A DNA stretch of 46,697 nt. It comes from an uncultured Clostridia bacterium. Lineage in GTDB: Bacteria; Bacillota; Clostridia; Oscillospirales; Ruminococcaceae. Shown piece after piece: positions 24,348 through 46,179 of this stretch; within the stretch, counting starts at the first letter, position 1, and each line of letters starts with the position of its first letter. A program made the position numbers and the translations under genes. The stretch is from NCBI GenBank assembly GCA_947625915.1, contig CANQPX010000013.1:1-46697 (forward strand), read 5' to 3'. The notes under the pieces are model-generated. The model had not been told where the DNA came from. It ran no database searches and saw nothing but the letters and a program-made list of their open reading frames with translations.

Positions 24348-24395
24348 AAAAAAGCAGAGCCAATAAAAGCTCTGCTTTCAGACTGTCGAAAAATT
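24348..24395 (+). repeat. Left 48-nt inverted repeat containing a terminator
   Basis: It contains AAAGCAGAGC / GCTCTGCTTT (24351-24360, 24369-24378) next to six A, i.e. a U-tract for the minus strand. The whole 48-nt block matches the reverse complement of 24687-24734 at 40 of 48 positions. It starts 3 nt after the spoVM stop. The block probably serves as the transcription terminator between the convergent spoVM and mcrC transcripts. Confidence 0.7.
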
Positions 24396-24452
24396 AAAAA
24401 CGGCGAGAACAAACTAAAAAACGAAAAACAAAACTTCGCCCGAAAAGCTGGT

Positions 24453-24666
24453 CCAGCGCAGCCGCGCTGGTGGGGTCAAGGGGTGAAACCCCTTGTCGCC
24501 ATCCGCAGATGGCGAAATCCCCTAATGCCTTTAGGAGCTCCGCAGGGGGTGAATTTACGCCGCAGGCGTAAAGAGGGGGAAGCCCTGCGATAGAGGGCTT
24601 CCCCCTTGAACTAACAAATTATTTCTATTTTTTCCTTGTCAAACAACCCGGTGAGTTGTTTGACAA
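24453..24666. repeat. 214-nt multi-hairpin repeat, copy 1 (candidate structured RNA)
   Basis: No gene occupies 24346-24737. This 214-nt block folds into consecutive stems: H1 24453-24470, H2 24477-24495, H3 24497-24514, H4 24521-24535, H5 24554-24572, H6 24574-24606 (13 bp) and H7 24636-24666 (12 bp, loop CCGGTGA). It aligns without gaps to 45966-46179 with 23 substitutions. Sixteen of these make eight complementary pair swaps, two in H3, four in H5 and two in H7. No coding potential is convincing. It could be a structured ncRNA, a MITE-like palindromic repeat, or a transposon-associated RNA; strand is unknown. Confidence 0.85.
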
Positions 24667-24686
24667 CGAACTATACATTATTTGTA

Positions 24687-24734
24687 AATTTTTCTACAAA
24701 TTGAAAGCAGAGCCTTTATCGACTCTGCTTTTTG
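24687..24734 (+). repeat. Right 48-nt inverted repeat containing a terminator
   Basis: GAAAGCAGAG / CTCTGCTTTTT (arms about 24703-24731) with a plus-strand T-run. It is the inverted partner of 24348-24395 (40/48 identical) and ends 4 nt from the mcrC stop. Together the pair brackets the multi-hairpin repeat. Confidence 0.7.
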
Positions 24735-24737
24735 CTG

Positions 24738-25946
24738 TTATATGAAAAATGTTTCCGTAAGAACAGATACGCTCATGTCAATATCATTTAAGTCGATAAG
24801 ATACATCGTTTTTCCGATACCGCTGAATTCCGTGTTCAGCACTTGAGTCACGGGGAATACAAGAACAGTGTTTTCTTTTTCAACACCGTTATAATCCTTG
24901 AAGTTTTTGAACTTGAAACGTACATTGATAGTGTTATCGGTGATGCGGTTCTTGATGTAAAAATCCGAGATCGGTCTCATTTCCTTGTCCATACCGGTGT
25001 TGCTTATGGAATTGCTTATTTTTTCGGGCGTAAGGAAATAGTAGTTTGTGCGGTCGATCTGTTTTCTCAGACTGGAAGCGATACACGCACTGAAAAGCTT
25101 ATCCATATGAAAAAGCATTGCATATTTTACCTTTCCGCCTGTAAAGAATGTAGTTCCCTTATTCAGAAGGAAAAATCTGCTCCATTTCATTGCATTGAAG
25201 TATTTGTTCATACTTCTGTCCTCAATGCTGTTTTTGAAATCGTCTCTTATATTTGTCGAAGATTCCACATTGTCGAGGGATAACAAAAGCATACGGATCT
25301 TTTTCTTATTCAGTGTATTTGAAGAAAGTTTATCAAGGACTTCCAGAGTTTTTTTCAATAAGCGGTTTTCCGCACGATTGACACTGAACACATCATATTC
25401 CACAAAGAATTTTTCTTTATGGGCATAGTTCTTTTTTGCGTGTTCCGCGTATATTGTTTTGCCTTTTACGAAAGTTTCATTTCCGCGGTATGGTACATAT
25501 GTCTGTTTCAGACCGTTCCGAACAACGTTAAGGACTTCATCTGTGAACATTCTTACGCAGATCTCAAACAAATTGAGCTGTTCTTTTTTAAAATAGAGTT
25601 CATCGAATTTTCTTATGGGAACTTCTCTTATAGCTTCCAGCATATGCAATATCAGCATTTTGGAAACGATGATATTTTCTTCGCTGTTTGTGCGGATCTG
25701 AGGAAGTATTTCGATCTGTGTACCGTCTTTGAGCATAATTATCCCCACATAACGTGACGGCGTCAAAGCTTCTCTGCCGTCGGGAAGGGTAATTTTATGC
25801 ATTACCGAATATTTTTTGCTTGCGGCAAAATCATCGAGTCTTTCGTAATTATGTTCGGAAAGGAGTATTTTATGCGGTTCATTTCCGTTACCGGCTTTAA
25901 CGAAGCAGTCGGCTTCCGTTACCACATAGCGTTTAAGTTTTTTCAT
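24738..25946 (-). CDS. mcrC: McrC-family protein (McrBC restriction subunit)
   Basis: A 402-residue McrC-like protein. The N-terminal domain shows the family's YVGIIMLKDGTQIEILPQI (about 66-85), and FFVEYDVFSVNRAENRLLKKT (180-200) is the central NR-L motif. In McrC the C-terminal PD-(D/E)xK nuclease reads about PD...iDaKYK. Here RPISDFYIKN has D328 but the second motif is NVRFKFK (341-347), with Arg in place of the acidic residue. It follows the mcrB-like gene by 12 nt. Nuclease loss is an inference from a by-eye alignment. Confidence 0.85.
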   Translation of the reverse strand: MKKLKRYVVTEADCFVKAGNGNEPHKILLSEHNYERLDDFAASKKYSVMHKITLPDGREALTPSRYVGIIMLKDGTQIEILPQIRTNSEENIIVSKMLILHMLEAIREVPIRKFDELYFKKEQLNLFEICVRMFTDEVLNVVRNGLKQTYVPYRGNETFVKGKTIYAEHAKKNYAHKEKFFVEYDVFSVNRAENRLLKKTLEVLDKLSSNTLNKKKIRMLLLSLDNVESSTNIRDDFKNSIEDRSMNKYFNAMKWSRFFLLNKGTTFFTGGKVKYAMLFHMDKLFSACIASSLRKQIDRTNYYFLTPEKISNSISNTGMDKEMRPISDFYIKNRITDNTINVRFKFKNFKDYNGVEKENTVLVFPVTQVLNTEFSGIGKTMYLIDLNDIDMSVSVLTETFFI

Positions 25947-44512: not shown

Positions 44513-45925
44513 ATGGCAGGAAAGTTAAAAACAGTCTACATATGCAGCCAATGCGGCTACGAAAGCTCAAAATGGAACGGAAAATGCCCCTCTTGCGGCG
44601 AATGGAACACTCTTGAAGAGGATATCGTGGAGACCGCTCCCGCAAGATCTTCTTTGGGAAAGTCAGGGTCATCGATAAAGATCGTCGATCTTTCCTCGGA
44701 AATAAGGACTCTTTCAGGGATAGATACGGAAGAAGATGTAAGATATTCAACAGGCATAAACGAACTTAACAGAGTCCTCGGCGGAGGGCTTGTGAAGGGT
44801 TCCCTTGTGCTGATAGGCGGAGAACCGGGCATAGGAAAATCTACCATACTTTTACAGATATGTAAATTTCTCGGTGAGGAACATACGATATTGTATGTTT
44901 CGGGAGAGGAAAGTATCAGGCAGATAAAGATACGCGCCCAGCGGCTCGGAGTTGATACGGAAAATCTTTATCTTCTTTCAACAAATGACGCAAGAGCCGC
45001 GGCTAATACGATATGCACACATAAACCGGATATTGCTATAATCGACTCGATACAAACTATGTCTTTGAGCGAACTCCCGTCAAGCGCGGGAAGCATAACT
45101 CAGGTCAGAGAGTGTACCAACCTTTTTATGAAAACGGCCAAATCCGAGGAGATACCGATATTTATTGTAGGTCATGTCAATAAAGACGGTGCCATCGCGG
45201 GTCCTAAAGTAATGGAGCATATCGTAGATACCGTGCTTTACTTTGAGGGCGAACGCCACCTGAGTTACAGGATACTTCGGGCGGTAAAGAACCGTTTCGG
45301 TTCAACAAATGAGATAGGCGTTTTTGAGATGTGCGACAACGGTCTTGAAGAAGTGGAAAATCCTTCGATGATGCTCCTTAACGGCAGACCTGTTGGGATA
45401 TCGGGAACCTGCGTCGCCTGTATAATGGAAGGCAGCCGTCCGATACTTGCGGAAGTGCAGGCGCTGGTCACGAAAACGACTTTTCCGTCTCCAAAGCGCA
45501 CTGCAACGGGATTTGACTATAACAGGCTTGCGATAATAATTGCCGTACTGGAAAAGCGAATGGGAATGTTTTTCGGAACGCTTGACGTTTACCTTAACAT
45601 TGTGGGAGGTTTTCGGCTTGACGAGCCGGCAGGGGATCTTCCGGTGGCGCTGGCGGTGTACAGCGGATATTTTGACATTGCGATAAGTGAAAAGCTTATT
45701 GCATTTGGTGAGATCGGACTTGGCGGCGAAGTGCGCAGCACATCGAATATCCCGCAAAGGATAATGGAAGCCCAGAGATTGGGATTTACCGAATGTATCA
45801 TACCGAAGCAGGCTTTGCGGAACATTGATCCCAACAAATACAATATGCATATTTACGGTGTATCAAATTTACGGCAGGCGTTTGCGGTAGTAAAAAAGAC
45901 AGCGGAAGAGAGCAAAAAAAGTTAA
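44513..45925 (+). CDS. radA: DNA repair protein RadA
   Basis: RecA-like branch-migration ATPase with a C4 zinc finger (C11, C14, C25, C28: CSQCGYESSKWNGKCPSCG), Walker A GGEPGIGKST, the RadA-specific KNRFGSTNEIGVFEM, and a C-terminal Lon-like domain (DLPVALAVYSGYFD, FGEIGLGGEVR). The 470-residue length is normal. SD AAGGAGCG. It is the last intact gene before the second structured repeat. Confidence 0.97.
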   Translation: MAGKLKTVYICSQCGYESSKWNGKCPSCGEWNTLEEDIVETAPARSSLGKSGSSIKIVDLSSEIRTLSGIDTEEDVRYSTGINELNRVLGGGLVKGSLVLIGGEPGIGKSTILLQICKFLGEEHTILYVSGEESIRQIKIRAQRLGVDTENLYLLSTNDARAAANTICTHKPDIAIIDSIQTMSLSELPSSAGSITQVRECTNLFMKTAKSEEIPIFIVGHVNKDGAIAGPKVMEHIVDTVLYFEGERHLSYRILRAVKNRFGSTNEIGVFEMCDNGLEEVENPSMMLLNGRPVGISGTCVACIMEGSRPILAEVQALVTKTTFPSPKRTATGFDYNRLAIIIAVLEKRMGMFFGTLDVYLNIVGGFRLDEPAGDLPVALAVYSGYFDIAISEKLIAFGEIGLGGEVRSTSNIPQRIMEAQRLGFTECIIPKQALRNIDPNKYNMHIYGVSNLRQAFAVVKKTAEESKKS

Positions 45926-45930
45926 AATAA

Positions 45931-45955
45931 CAATTTTGCGCGCAGCGCAAAATTG
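45931..45955. terminator. Hairpin after radA
   Basis: CAATTTTGCGC and GCGCAAAATTG form a perfect 11-bp stem with a GCA triloop, 6 nt after the radA stop. There is no clear plus-strand T-run, so terminator strength is uncertain. Confidence 0.5.
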
Positions 45956-45965
45956 AATAGCTGAT

Positions 45966-46179
45966 CCAGCGCAGCCGCGCTGGTGGGGTCAAGGGGTGAA
46001 ACCCCTTGTCGTCGTCCGCAGACGACGAAATCTCCTAATGCCTTTAGGAGCTCCGCAAGGGGTGAATTGCTGTCGCAGACAGCAAGAGGGGGAAGCCCTG
46101 CGATAGAGGGCTTCCCCCTTGAACTAACGAATTTTTTCAAATTTTCCCTTGCCAAACAGCCCGGTGAGCTGTTTGGCAA
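45966..46179. repeat. 214-nt multi-hairpin repeat, copy 2 (candidate structured RNA)
   Basis: Gap-free homologue of 24453-24666. Stems: H1 45966-45983, H2 45990-46008, H3 46010-46027, H4 46034-46048, H5 46067-46085, H6 46087-46119 and H7 46149-46179. H1, H2, H4 and H6 are identical to copy 1. H3, H5 and H7 differ only by paired changes, for example CGTCGTC/GACGACG here for CGCCATC/GATGGCG. Similarity begins about 11 nt before H1 and stops right after H7. It fills much of the gene-free stretch 45926-46337. No coding potential. Confidence 0.85.

Follow-up and report, generated by a model that had tools for sequence, protein, structure and literature searches.

A mosaic hairpin element with IS1182-type ends, often found between duplicated terminator-like hairpins in Clostridia

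Results

The window, the whole 46,697-nt stretch of clostridial DNA analysed here, contains two copies of a 214-nt repeat at 24453-24666 and 45966-46179, which a preliminary description had presented as a candidate family of structured RNA or structured DNA. A re-count bore out that the copies align without gaps and with 23 substitutions, and no ORF of at least 90 aa overlaps 24453-24666. Directly 3' of copy 1 lies a gene for a McrBC-type restriction component (24738-25946, minus strand). Copy 2 (45930-46179, plus strand) comprises a type-B 5' palindrome (45930-45956) and the repeat itself, and its 5' side borders on the 3' end of a radA-like gene (44513-45925).

Alignment of 43 copies and reading of their flanks revealed that conservation extends well past 24453-24666. 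The whole mobile element around copy 1 spans 325 bp on the plus strand (24379-24703), from one terminal inverted repeat (TIR) to the other. The element ends are inverted repeats, CAGTCTGTCGAAAAA and variants; in copy 1 the left TIR (24379-24393, plus strand), CAGACTGTCGAAAAA, has one mismatch to CAGTCTGTCGAAAAA, and the right TIR (24689-24703, plus strand), TTTTTCTACAAATTG, has three mismatches to the reverse complement. For copy 2, neither TIR was detected at the threshold applied. The 40 elements in which both ends were recognized measure 303-431 bp. On this sequence evidence, the repeat at 24453-24666 is the core of a non-autonomous mobile element of 300-430 bp; the interval itself was confirmed as a repeat and is the portion that both window copies have in common. 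Outside the TIRs of copy 1 stand two terminator-like hairpins, at 24351-24378 (AAAGCAGAGC...GCTCTGCTTT) and 24704-24731 (AAAGCAGAGC...CTCTGCTTT), with the same stem and different loops.

The core of copy 1 reads on the plus strand as a series of hairpin modules. H1 (24453-24470) is present as allele a, one of three alleles among 70 copies, and is followed by H2 (24477-24495) with a T-GAA-A loop allele, H3 (24496-24515) with the loop CCGCAG, and the H4 region (24519-24550; CCCCTAATGCCTTTAGGAGCTCCGCAGGGG), whose pairing is less certain and which was left out of the 30-copy pair test described below. H5 (24554-24572) carries a C-GCA-G loop; H6 occupies 24574-24606, and H7 (24636-24666) closes the core. 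Sixteen of the 23 substitutions between the window copies form eight pairs, each changing from one Watson-Crick pair to another: 24499/24512 and 24501/24510 in H3, 24556/24570, 24557/24569, 24558/24568 and 24560/24566 in H5, and 24639/24663 and 24646/24656 in H7. The other seven lie elsewhere.

The host draft genome (2.10 Mb in 73 contigs, 89.5% complete) gave matches to copy 1 in at least 45 places with 40 of 145 candidates scored, some of these places being pieces of one copy. Distinct elements read in the draft numbered 72, of which 70 came from one pass and two (L076 and L082) were added; this is a lower bound. The extra stretches had been picked by end-motif matches. A TIR pair with at most four mismatches was recognized in 40 of the 72, and the 32 others, in which both ends were not found, were left out of the flank tests. 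The end motif matched the host draft 139 + 107 times with at most three mismatches, and since the reversed pattern gave 81 + 69 matches, many of the weak ones are due to chance. Four TIR matches without a core (L083, L096, L104 and L114) look by eye like coding sequence, so that no autonomous copy was found in the host among those of the listed matches that were retrieved.

A single DNA query with the element matched 18 of 21 genomes of the genus, the host's own included, and none of 20 genomes of other genera. The core pattern matched no fewer than 105 stretches from species genomes in GTDB; nearly all of the 80 titles listed belong to Oscillospiraceae, Ruminococcus, Clostridia or similar MAGs, and one is labelled Alistipes. 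The match in Shimia aestuarii (L159) has no array around the core and looks like chance. A distant blastn search of phages and plasmids gave no match. One contig of a viral collection, L232 (IMGVR_UViG_3300021431_004013), has the core at its extreme end and may be bacterial DNA filed there by mistake.

Compared with its dinucleotide shuffles, the stretch that holds copy 1 and short flanks (24440-24676) has a much stronger predicted fold, with z-scores of -7.5 for the plus and -8.4 for the minus strand; for copy 2 the fold was computed with no shuffles for comparison. Among 30 aligned copies, 99.3% of 1626 pair cells were paired and 25 of 55 pairs had changed on both sides, values that none of 500 shuffles reached. 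Structures slid by 1-3 columns retained 41-52% paired cells and 0-3 two-sided pairs, a control that favours the true structure, as this was taken from one of the same sequences. The proposal that the repeats vary in keeping with their pairing beyond chance was thus upheld, and the copies, though many, do not ignore it. Two-sided changes were counted in 180 cells and one-sided changes in three, all G-U; the 11 unpaired cells comprised five A-C, five A-G and one C-T, so that G-U (3) and A-C (5) were similarly scarce among the 1626 cells.

The modules were then compared across the 70 elements of the one pass, with n between 44 and 69 of 70 as nested or unreadable hairpins drop out. H1 to H7 each occur as a few discrete alleles, and over much of the element these are combined nearly freely. 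The two arms of a hairpin are tightly linked, with a normalised MI of 0.96 for H3, 1.00 for H5 and 0.89 for H7 (n = 61 each). Fourteen of 21 module pairs did not rise above the permuted level (e.g. H3-H5, 0.09 vs 0.11), and seven were linked: 5p-H1 (0.41), H5-H6 (0.91), H2-H3 (0.20), H5-H7 and H6-H7 (about 0.22 each), H1-H2 (0.16) and H3-H7 (0.16). The adjacent H2 and H3 are weakly linked, and the arms of H3, with a six-base loop between them, almost fully.

This pattern bears on the origin of the paired changes. Ordinary compensatory mutation, pair by pair, could connect stem alleles that are one or two pairs apart, as are some of H3 (GCCGT, GCCAT, GTCGT, GTTGT). Against this, the same stem alleles recur in new combinations, with 39 distinct haplotypes among the 41 readable at all modules; unmatched arms are confined to 1/61 for H3, 1/61 for H5 and 2/61 for H7, and one-sided intermediates are nearly missing. 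We therefore regard stepwise mutation as distinctly unlikely. Given linked arms and mostly free modules, the eight pairs of the window, all confirmed as such, are to be read as swaps at H3, H5 and H7: they are differences between alleles whose stems recur in other copies and do not count as eight independent events. The compensatory changes, as far as can be told from the copies compared, are swaps of whole hairpin alleles between copies.

Further arrangements of hairpins were seen in some arrays. Loci L048 and L144 carry tandem H2 hairpins with differing stems and a similar GGGGTC spacer, a hairpin duplication inside the array. Extra hairpins are nested in the loops of H1, H2, H3 or H6 in L029, L031, L038, L039, L076, L078 and L107; in several of them A dominates one side and T the other, as in a small terminator.

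Selection acting on a transcript would be another way of keeping the fold. The element would then be a family of structured non-coding RNA genes, with the transposon ends merely as their vehicle. The strong folding of copy 1, a variation that respects pairing, and a core kept in order with its linkers across many Oscillospiraceae despite differing ends around it are all in line with this reading, and RNA under selection normally tolerates G-U pairs. Wobble pairs were counted in unique stems from all sources, for pairs within the continuous stem only. In H3 (30 unique arm pairs, some of which fit the loop motif by chance; 150 base pairs), 118 Watson-Crick, seven G-T, two A-C and 23 other pairs were found, an excess of G-T over A-C that hints slightly at RNA. 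The 104 unique H5 sequences gave 1167 Watson-Crick, five G-T, three A-C and seven other pairs, with neither strand clearly favoured; the host count for H6 (28 G-T) was disregarded, as a shift in the alignment inflates it. That G-U is roughly as rare as A-C in the host and in H5 suggests a DNA fold or very recent exchange; it seems to favour folded DNA over RNA, and could also reflect the recent spread of few alleles.

Other observations likewise speak against an RNA family. Both strands fold about equally, one-sided changes are nearly missing in the host, and stems and entire modules have been replaced between species. At gathering thresholds Rfam gave no match in the window, and eight relative loci yielded five tRNA matches only; a permissive search returned 17 matches, all far below their gathering scores. 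The pairing-respecting changes together with the lack of Rfam matches agree with the proposal that the family is real and structured. GNA triloops, which are very stable in DNA, dominate H5 (53/61) and H2 (48/59) of the host, but were not leaned on as evidence because C-NGN-G loops prevail in H5 of relatives. On balance, an RNA gene family appears rather unlikely to us, and we prefer the reading that DNA-level processes keep the hairpin core folded.

The flanks of the 40 elements with both ends were compared with each other. The left-right flank score averaged 12.4 vs 5.5 in permuted pairs, where the highest of 200 means was 6.1, and 19 of the 40 flank pairs exceeded the 99th percentile of mismatched pairs. 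Read by eye, 17 of these 19 repeats are hairpins, one (L018) is a partial hairpin and one (L076) is an 11-bp AT-rich repeat. Whole-hairpin repeats mostly adjoin the element ends; in L091 the repeat is exact over 30 bp, in L086 over 27 bp. No significant flank repeat was present in 21 of the 40, some having 7-9 bp AT-rich repeats and several nothing clear; at least two right ends, those of L027 and L036, are probably mis-called. Hairpins with a score of at least 8 adjoin a TIR in 19 of the 40 elements, on both sides in 11, compared with 0.3-0.4% for shuffled flanks. In L103 and L110 and in the IS1182-type copy L284, the duplicated hairpins have their loops inverted between left and right, as though the hairpin had been copied or resolved the other way round.

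The locus of copy 1 was compared with 13 loci of congeners (L259-L271). In the window two hairpins enclose the element; eight congeners (L259, L260, L261, L263, L264, L266, L268 and L271) lack the element and have one hairpin followed by the same downstream sequence. L265 and L269 also have one hairpin, but their downstream sequence differs or is cut; L262 and L270 carry other arrays, and L267 is cut short. In the congeners L259-L261, L263 and L264, one TGA was reported within the match to thiamin pyrophosphokinase; it may be a stop lying upstream, close to the start codon, or may truly interrupt the gene. At 14 radA loci of congeners (L248 not included), no element was seen within 420 nt after the match. 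Altogether, the flank comparisons indicate that the elements are often inserted beside hairpins resembling intrinsic terminators, and that the entire hairpin is directly duplicated, one being left on each flank. A role of these hairpins in termination is predicted from their sequence.

Candidate autonomous partners were found in the same order. Judged by sequence comparison, the 15-bp element ends are shared with 1.5 kb transposons of the IS1182 family. The IS1182 model NF033551 matched in six of 21 genomes of the genus, in two over the cut-off, and had no match in the host draft at its 89.5% completeness. The one good IS1182-type copy within the genus, L115, scores over the cut-off and has the ends CAGCCTGTAGAAAAA / CAGCTTGTCGAAAAA; its left end adjoins a hairpin and its right end coincides with the contig end. 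L117 scores below the cut-off and is truncated by the start of its contig; the one end that it shows is similar and lies beside a hairpin. L120 is a decayed remnant with similar ends beside hairpins. Another family member, L116, was set aside as a partner for its different ends. The remnant in L120 (831-1211, genome G016) measures 381 bp and has kept both ends; an early stage in the conversion of a transposon to a MITE could look like this.

Of 394 genomes from the order, 18 carry close relatives of the L115 transposase, in 24 rows that represent 22 distinct loci. Seventeen of these loci have the end pair and five do not (L289-L292 and L295). A direct hairpin duplication of 20-39 bp, more alike than any mismatched flank pair, is carried by 13 of the 17 copies with both ends; hairpins stand on both sides in 16, and those at the two ends are unlike in four (L277, L279, L282 and L285), which could result from recombination between copies or from insertion between two terminators.

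Alternatively, each hairpin of the pair might be the separate terminator of one of two convergent genes. Under a simple ORF rule, 18 of the 40 elements lie between convergent ORFs, and the four IS copies with unlike hairpins would fit as well. However, the repeats are exact over up to 30 bp in MITEs and 39 bp in IS copies, loops included, a single hairpin occupies the empty site in eight congeners, and non-convergent sites exist too (e.g. L025 and L088); we consider this explanation extremely improbable. The earlier remark that both window copies follow the last gene of an operon fits a targeting of terminator-like hairpins, given the 18 elements between convergent ORFs.

Among cores in GTDB genomes with enough flank, seven of 69 have both TIRs at no more than three mismatches, which leaves 62 in which this was not shown. 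In all seven, the flank pair scores above the 99th percentile of mismatched pairs, of which there were only 42, and four are hairpin duplications of at least 20 bp. A tblastn search of 105 loci detected no IS1182 relative near the GTDB cores. The same core is bounded by a different end pair, approximately TAAATGATAATTTGC / GCAAATTATCATTTA, in L044 (G014) and L045 (G013), and this left end recurs in L140 and L149. These other ends, together with the 62 cores, argue that the core is not tied to IS1182.

A mobile element of the BIME/REP type, moved by a single-strand REP-associated (Y1) transposase, would likewise be mosaic, palindromic, extragenic and multi-copy. To our knowledge, BIMEs and REPs have no TIRs, and as far as we know, TIRs with long target duplications do not fit Y1 chemistry. 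BIMEs and REPs are associated with Y1 transposases, whereas Y1_Tnp (PF01797) was not found in the present host draft and occurs in four of 21 genomes of the genus, against 18 of 21 for the element. A Y1-moved element is thus very unlikely here; what is shared with BIMEs, according to the available part of the source, is the mosaic of palindromic units outside genes (PMC2817692).

Discussion

The preliminary description was supported in part. Its headline of a new structured RNA is disfavoured, as the copies are mobile DNA bounded by TIRs and flanked by target duplications, and these same features lend support to the transposon-type DNA fold that it had named as an alternative. The elements are short and multi-copy, the window copies lack a transposase gene (no ORF of at least 90 aa), and TIRs, target-site duplications and ends matching those of autonomous transposons are present. 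All this, and presumably mobilization in trans, they have in common with MITEs; they differ in duplicating a whole folded signal and in their combinatorial hairpin interior. While the element is thus MITE-like, no description of it was found in the literature searched.

With high confidence, we explain the observations jointly by a MITE with IS1182-type ends whose insertion duplicates a hairpin and whose interior hairpins are exchanged between copies. The transposase would recognize its target as a folded hairpin or cruciform and join the element at the stem's 5' feet on both strands; gap repair after joining would then copy the hairpin. Inside the element, recombination or gene conversion between copies would exchange entire hairpins. 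Half-exchanged hairpins may be corrected or lost, probably since the fold forms in DNA, by hairpin-templated correction or through binding by the transposase or host proteins. Whole-hairpin exchange and the loss of half-exchanged forms would produce paired changes without one-sided intermediates.

The closest precedent is IS1272/TnSha1 of the IS1182 family in Staphylococcus, whose target, in the portions of the reports available to us, is a hairpin, in several cases a confirmed terminator, with no primary-sequence target motif (PMC4923244, PMC5678879). An IS1182-family transposase and a hairpin target are common to both systems. In IS1272 the hairpin is deleted or replaced, and those portions report no target duplication (PMC4923244, PMC5678879); the present elements, in contrast, duplicate the entire hairpin, as in 13 of the 17 IS copies. 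Hairpin duplication corresponds to pathway b of the model in PMC5678879 (Fig. 13 in the available part of that paper), and the present elements appear to bear the sequence signature of this pathway. Apart from that hypothetical pathway, neither a hairpin-duplicating IS1182 insertion nor the present array was described in the open literature searched, which comprised partial texts and did not extend to subscription papers or ISfinder pages.

Other bacterial repeats share some of these traits. BOX elements are modular. We know of no duplication of host terminators and of no freely recombining hairpin alleles in BOX, RUP or SPRITE. These elements of Streptococcus pneumoniae are, like ours, short, extragenic and multi-copy, and SPRITE is terminator-like, going by the accessible portions of the sources (PMC10969869, PMC3049150). 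IS1182-type ends, terminator duplication and exchangeable hairpins, with IS1272 as a known relative, lead us to regard the element as a MITE with a new combination of features.

More speculatively, the hairpins themselves could be a pool of DNA cassettes that are defined by structure and recombine with one another. An IS1182-type transposase that reads hairpins would place the element at terminators and also duplicate or exchange the inner hairpins, and arrays would grow and shuffle hairpin by hairpin, built by repeated insertion and loss (H to H-element-H to H-H). This extension is tentative and in our estimate probably incorrect; if true, what is inherited as a unit would be the fold and not the sequence.

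The present mosaic, with its hairpins intact, warns that compensatory covariation of the textbook sort can be produced by the swapping of DNA palindromes, and covariation between repeat copies alone is therefore no proof of a functional RNA. Under the preferred explanation by transposition and hairpin exchange, the elements would represent a natural case in which transposition copies a folded target whole, as proposed in PMC5678879 and reported in the available portions of neither PMC4923244 nor PMC5678879. This mode of insertion also suggests how a mobile element may sit in gene-dense genomes without removing termination, a terminator-like hairpin being left for each neighbour.
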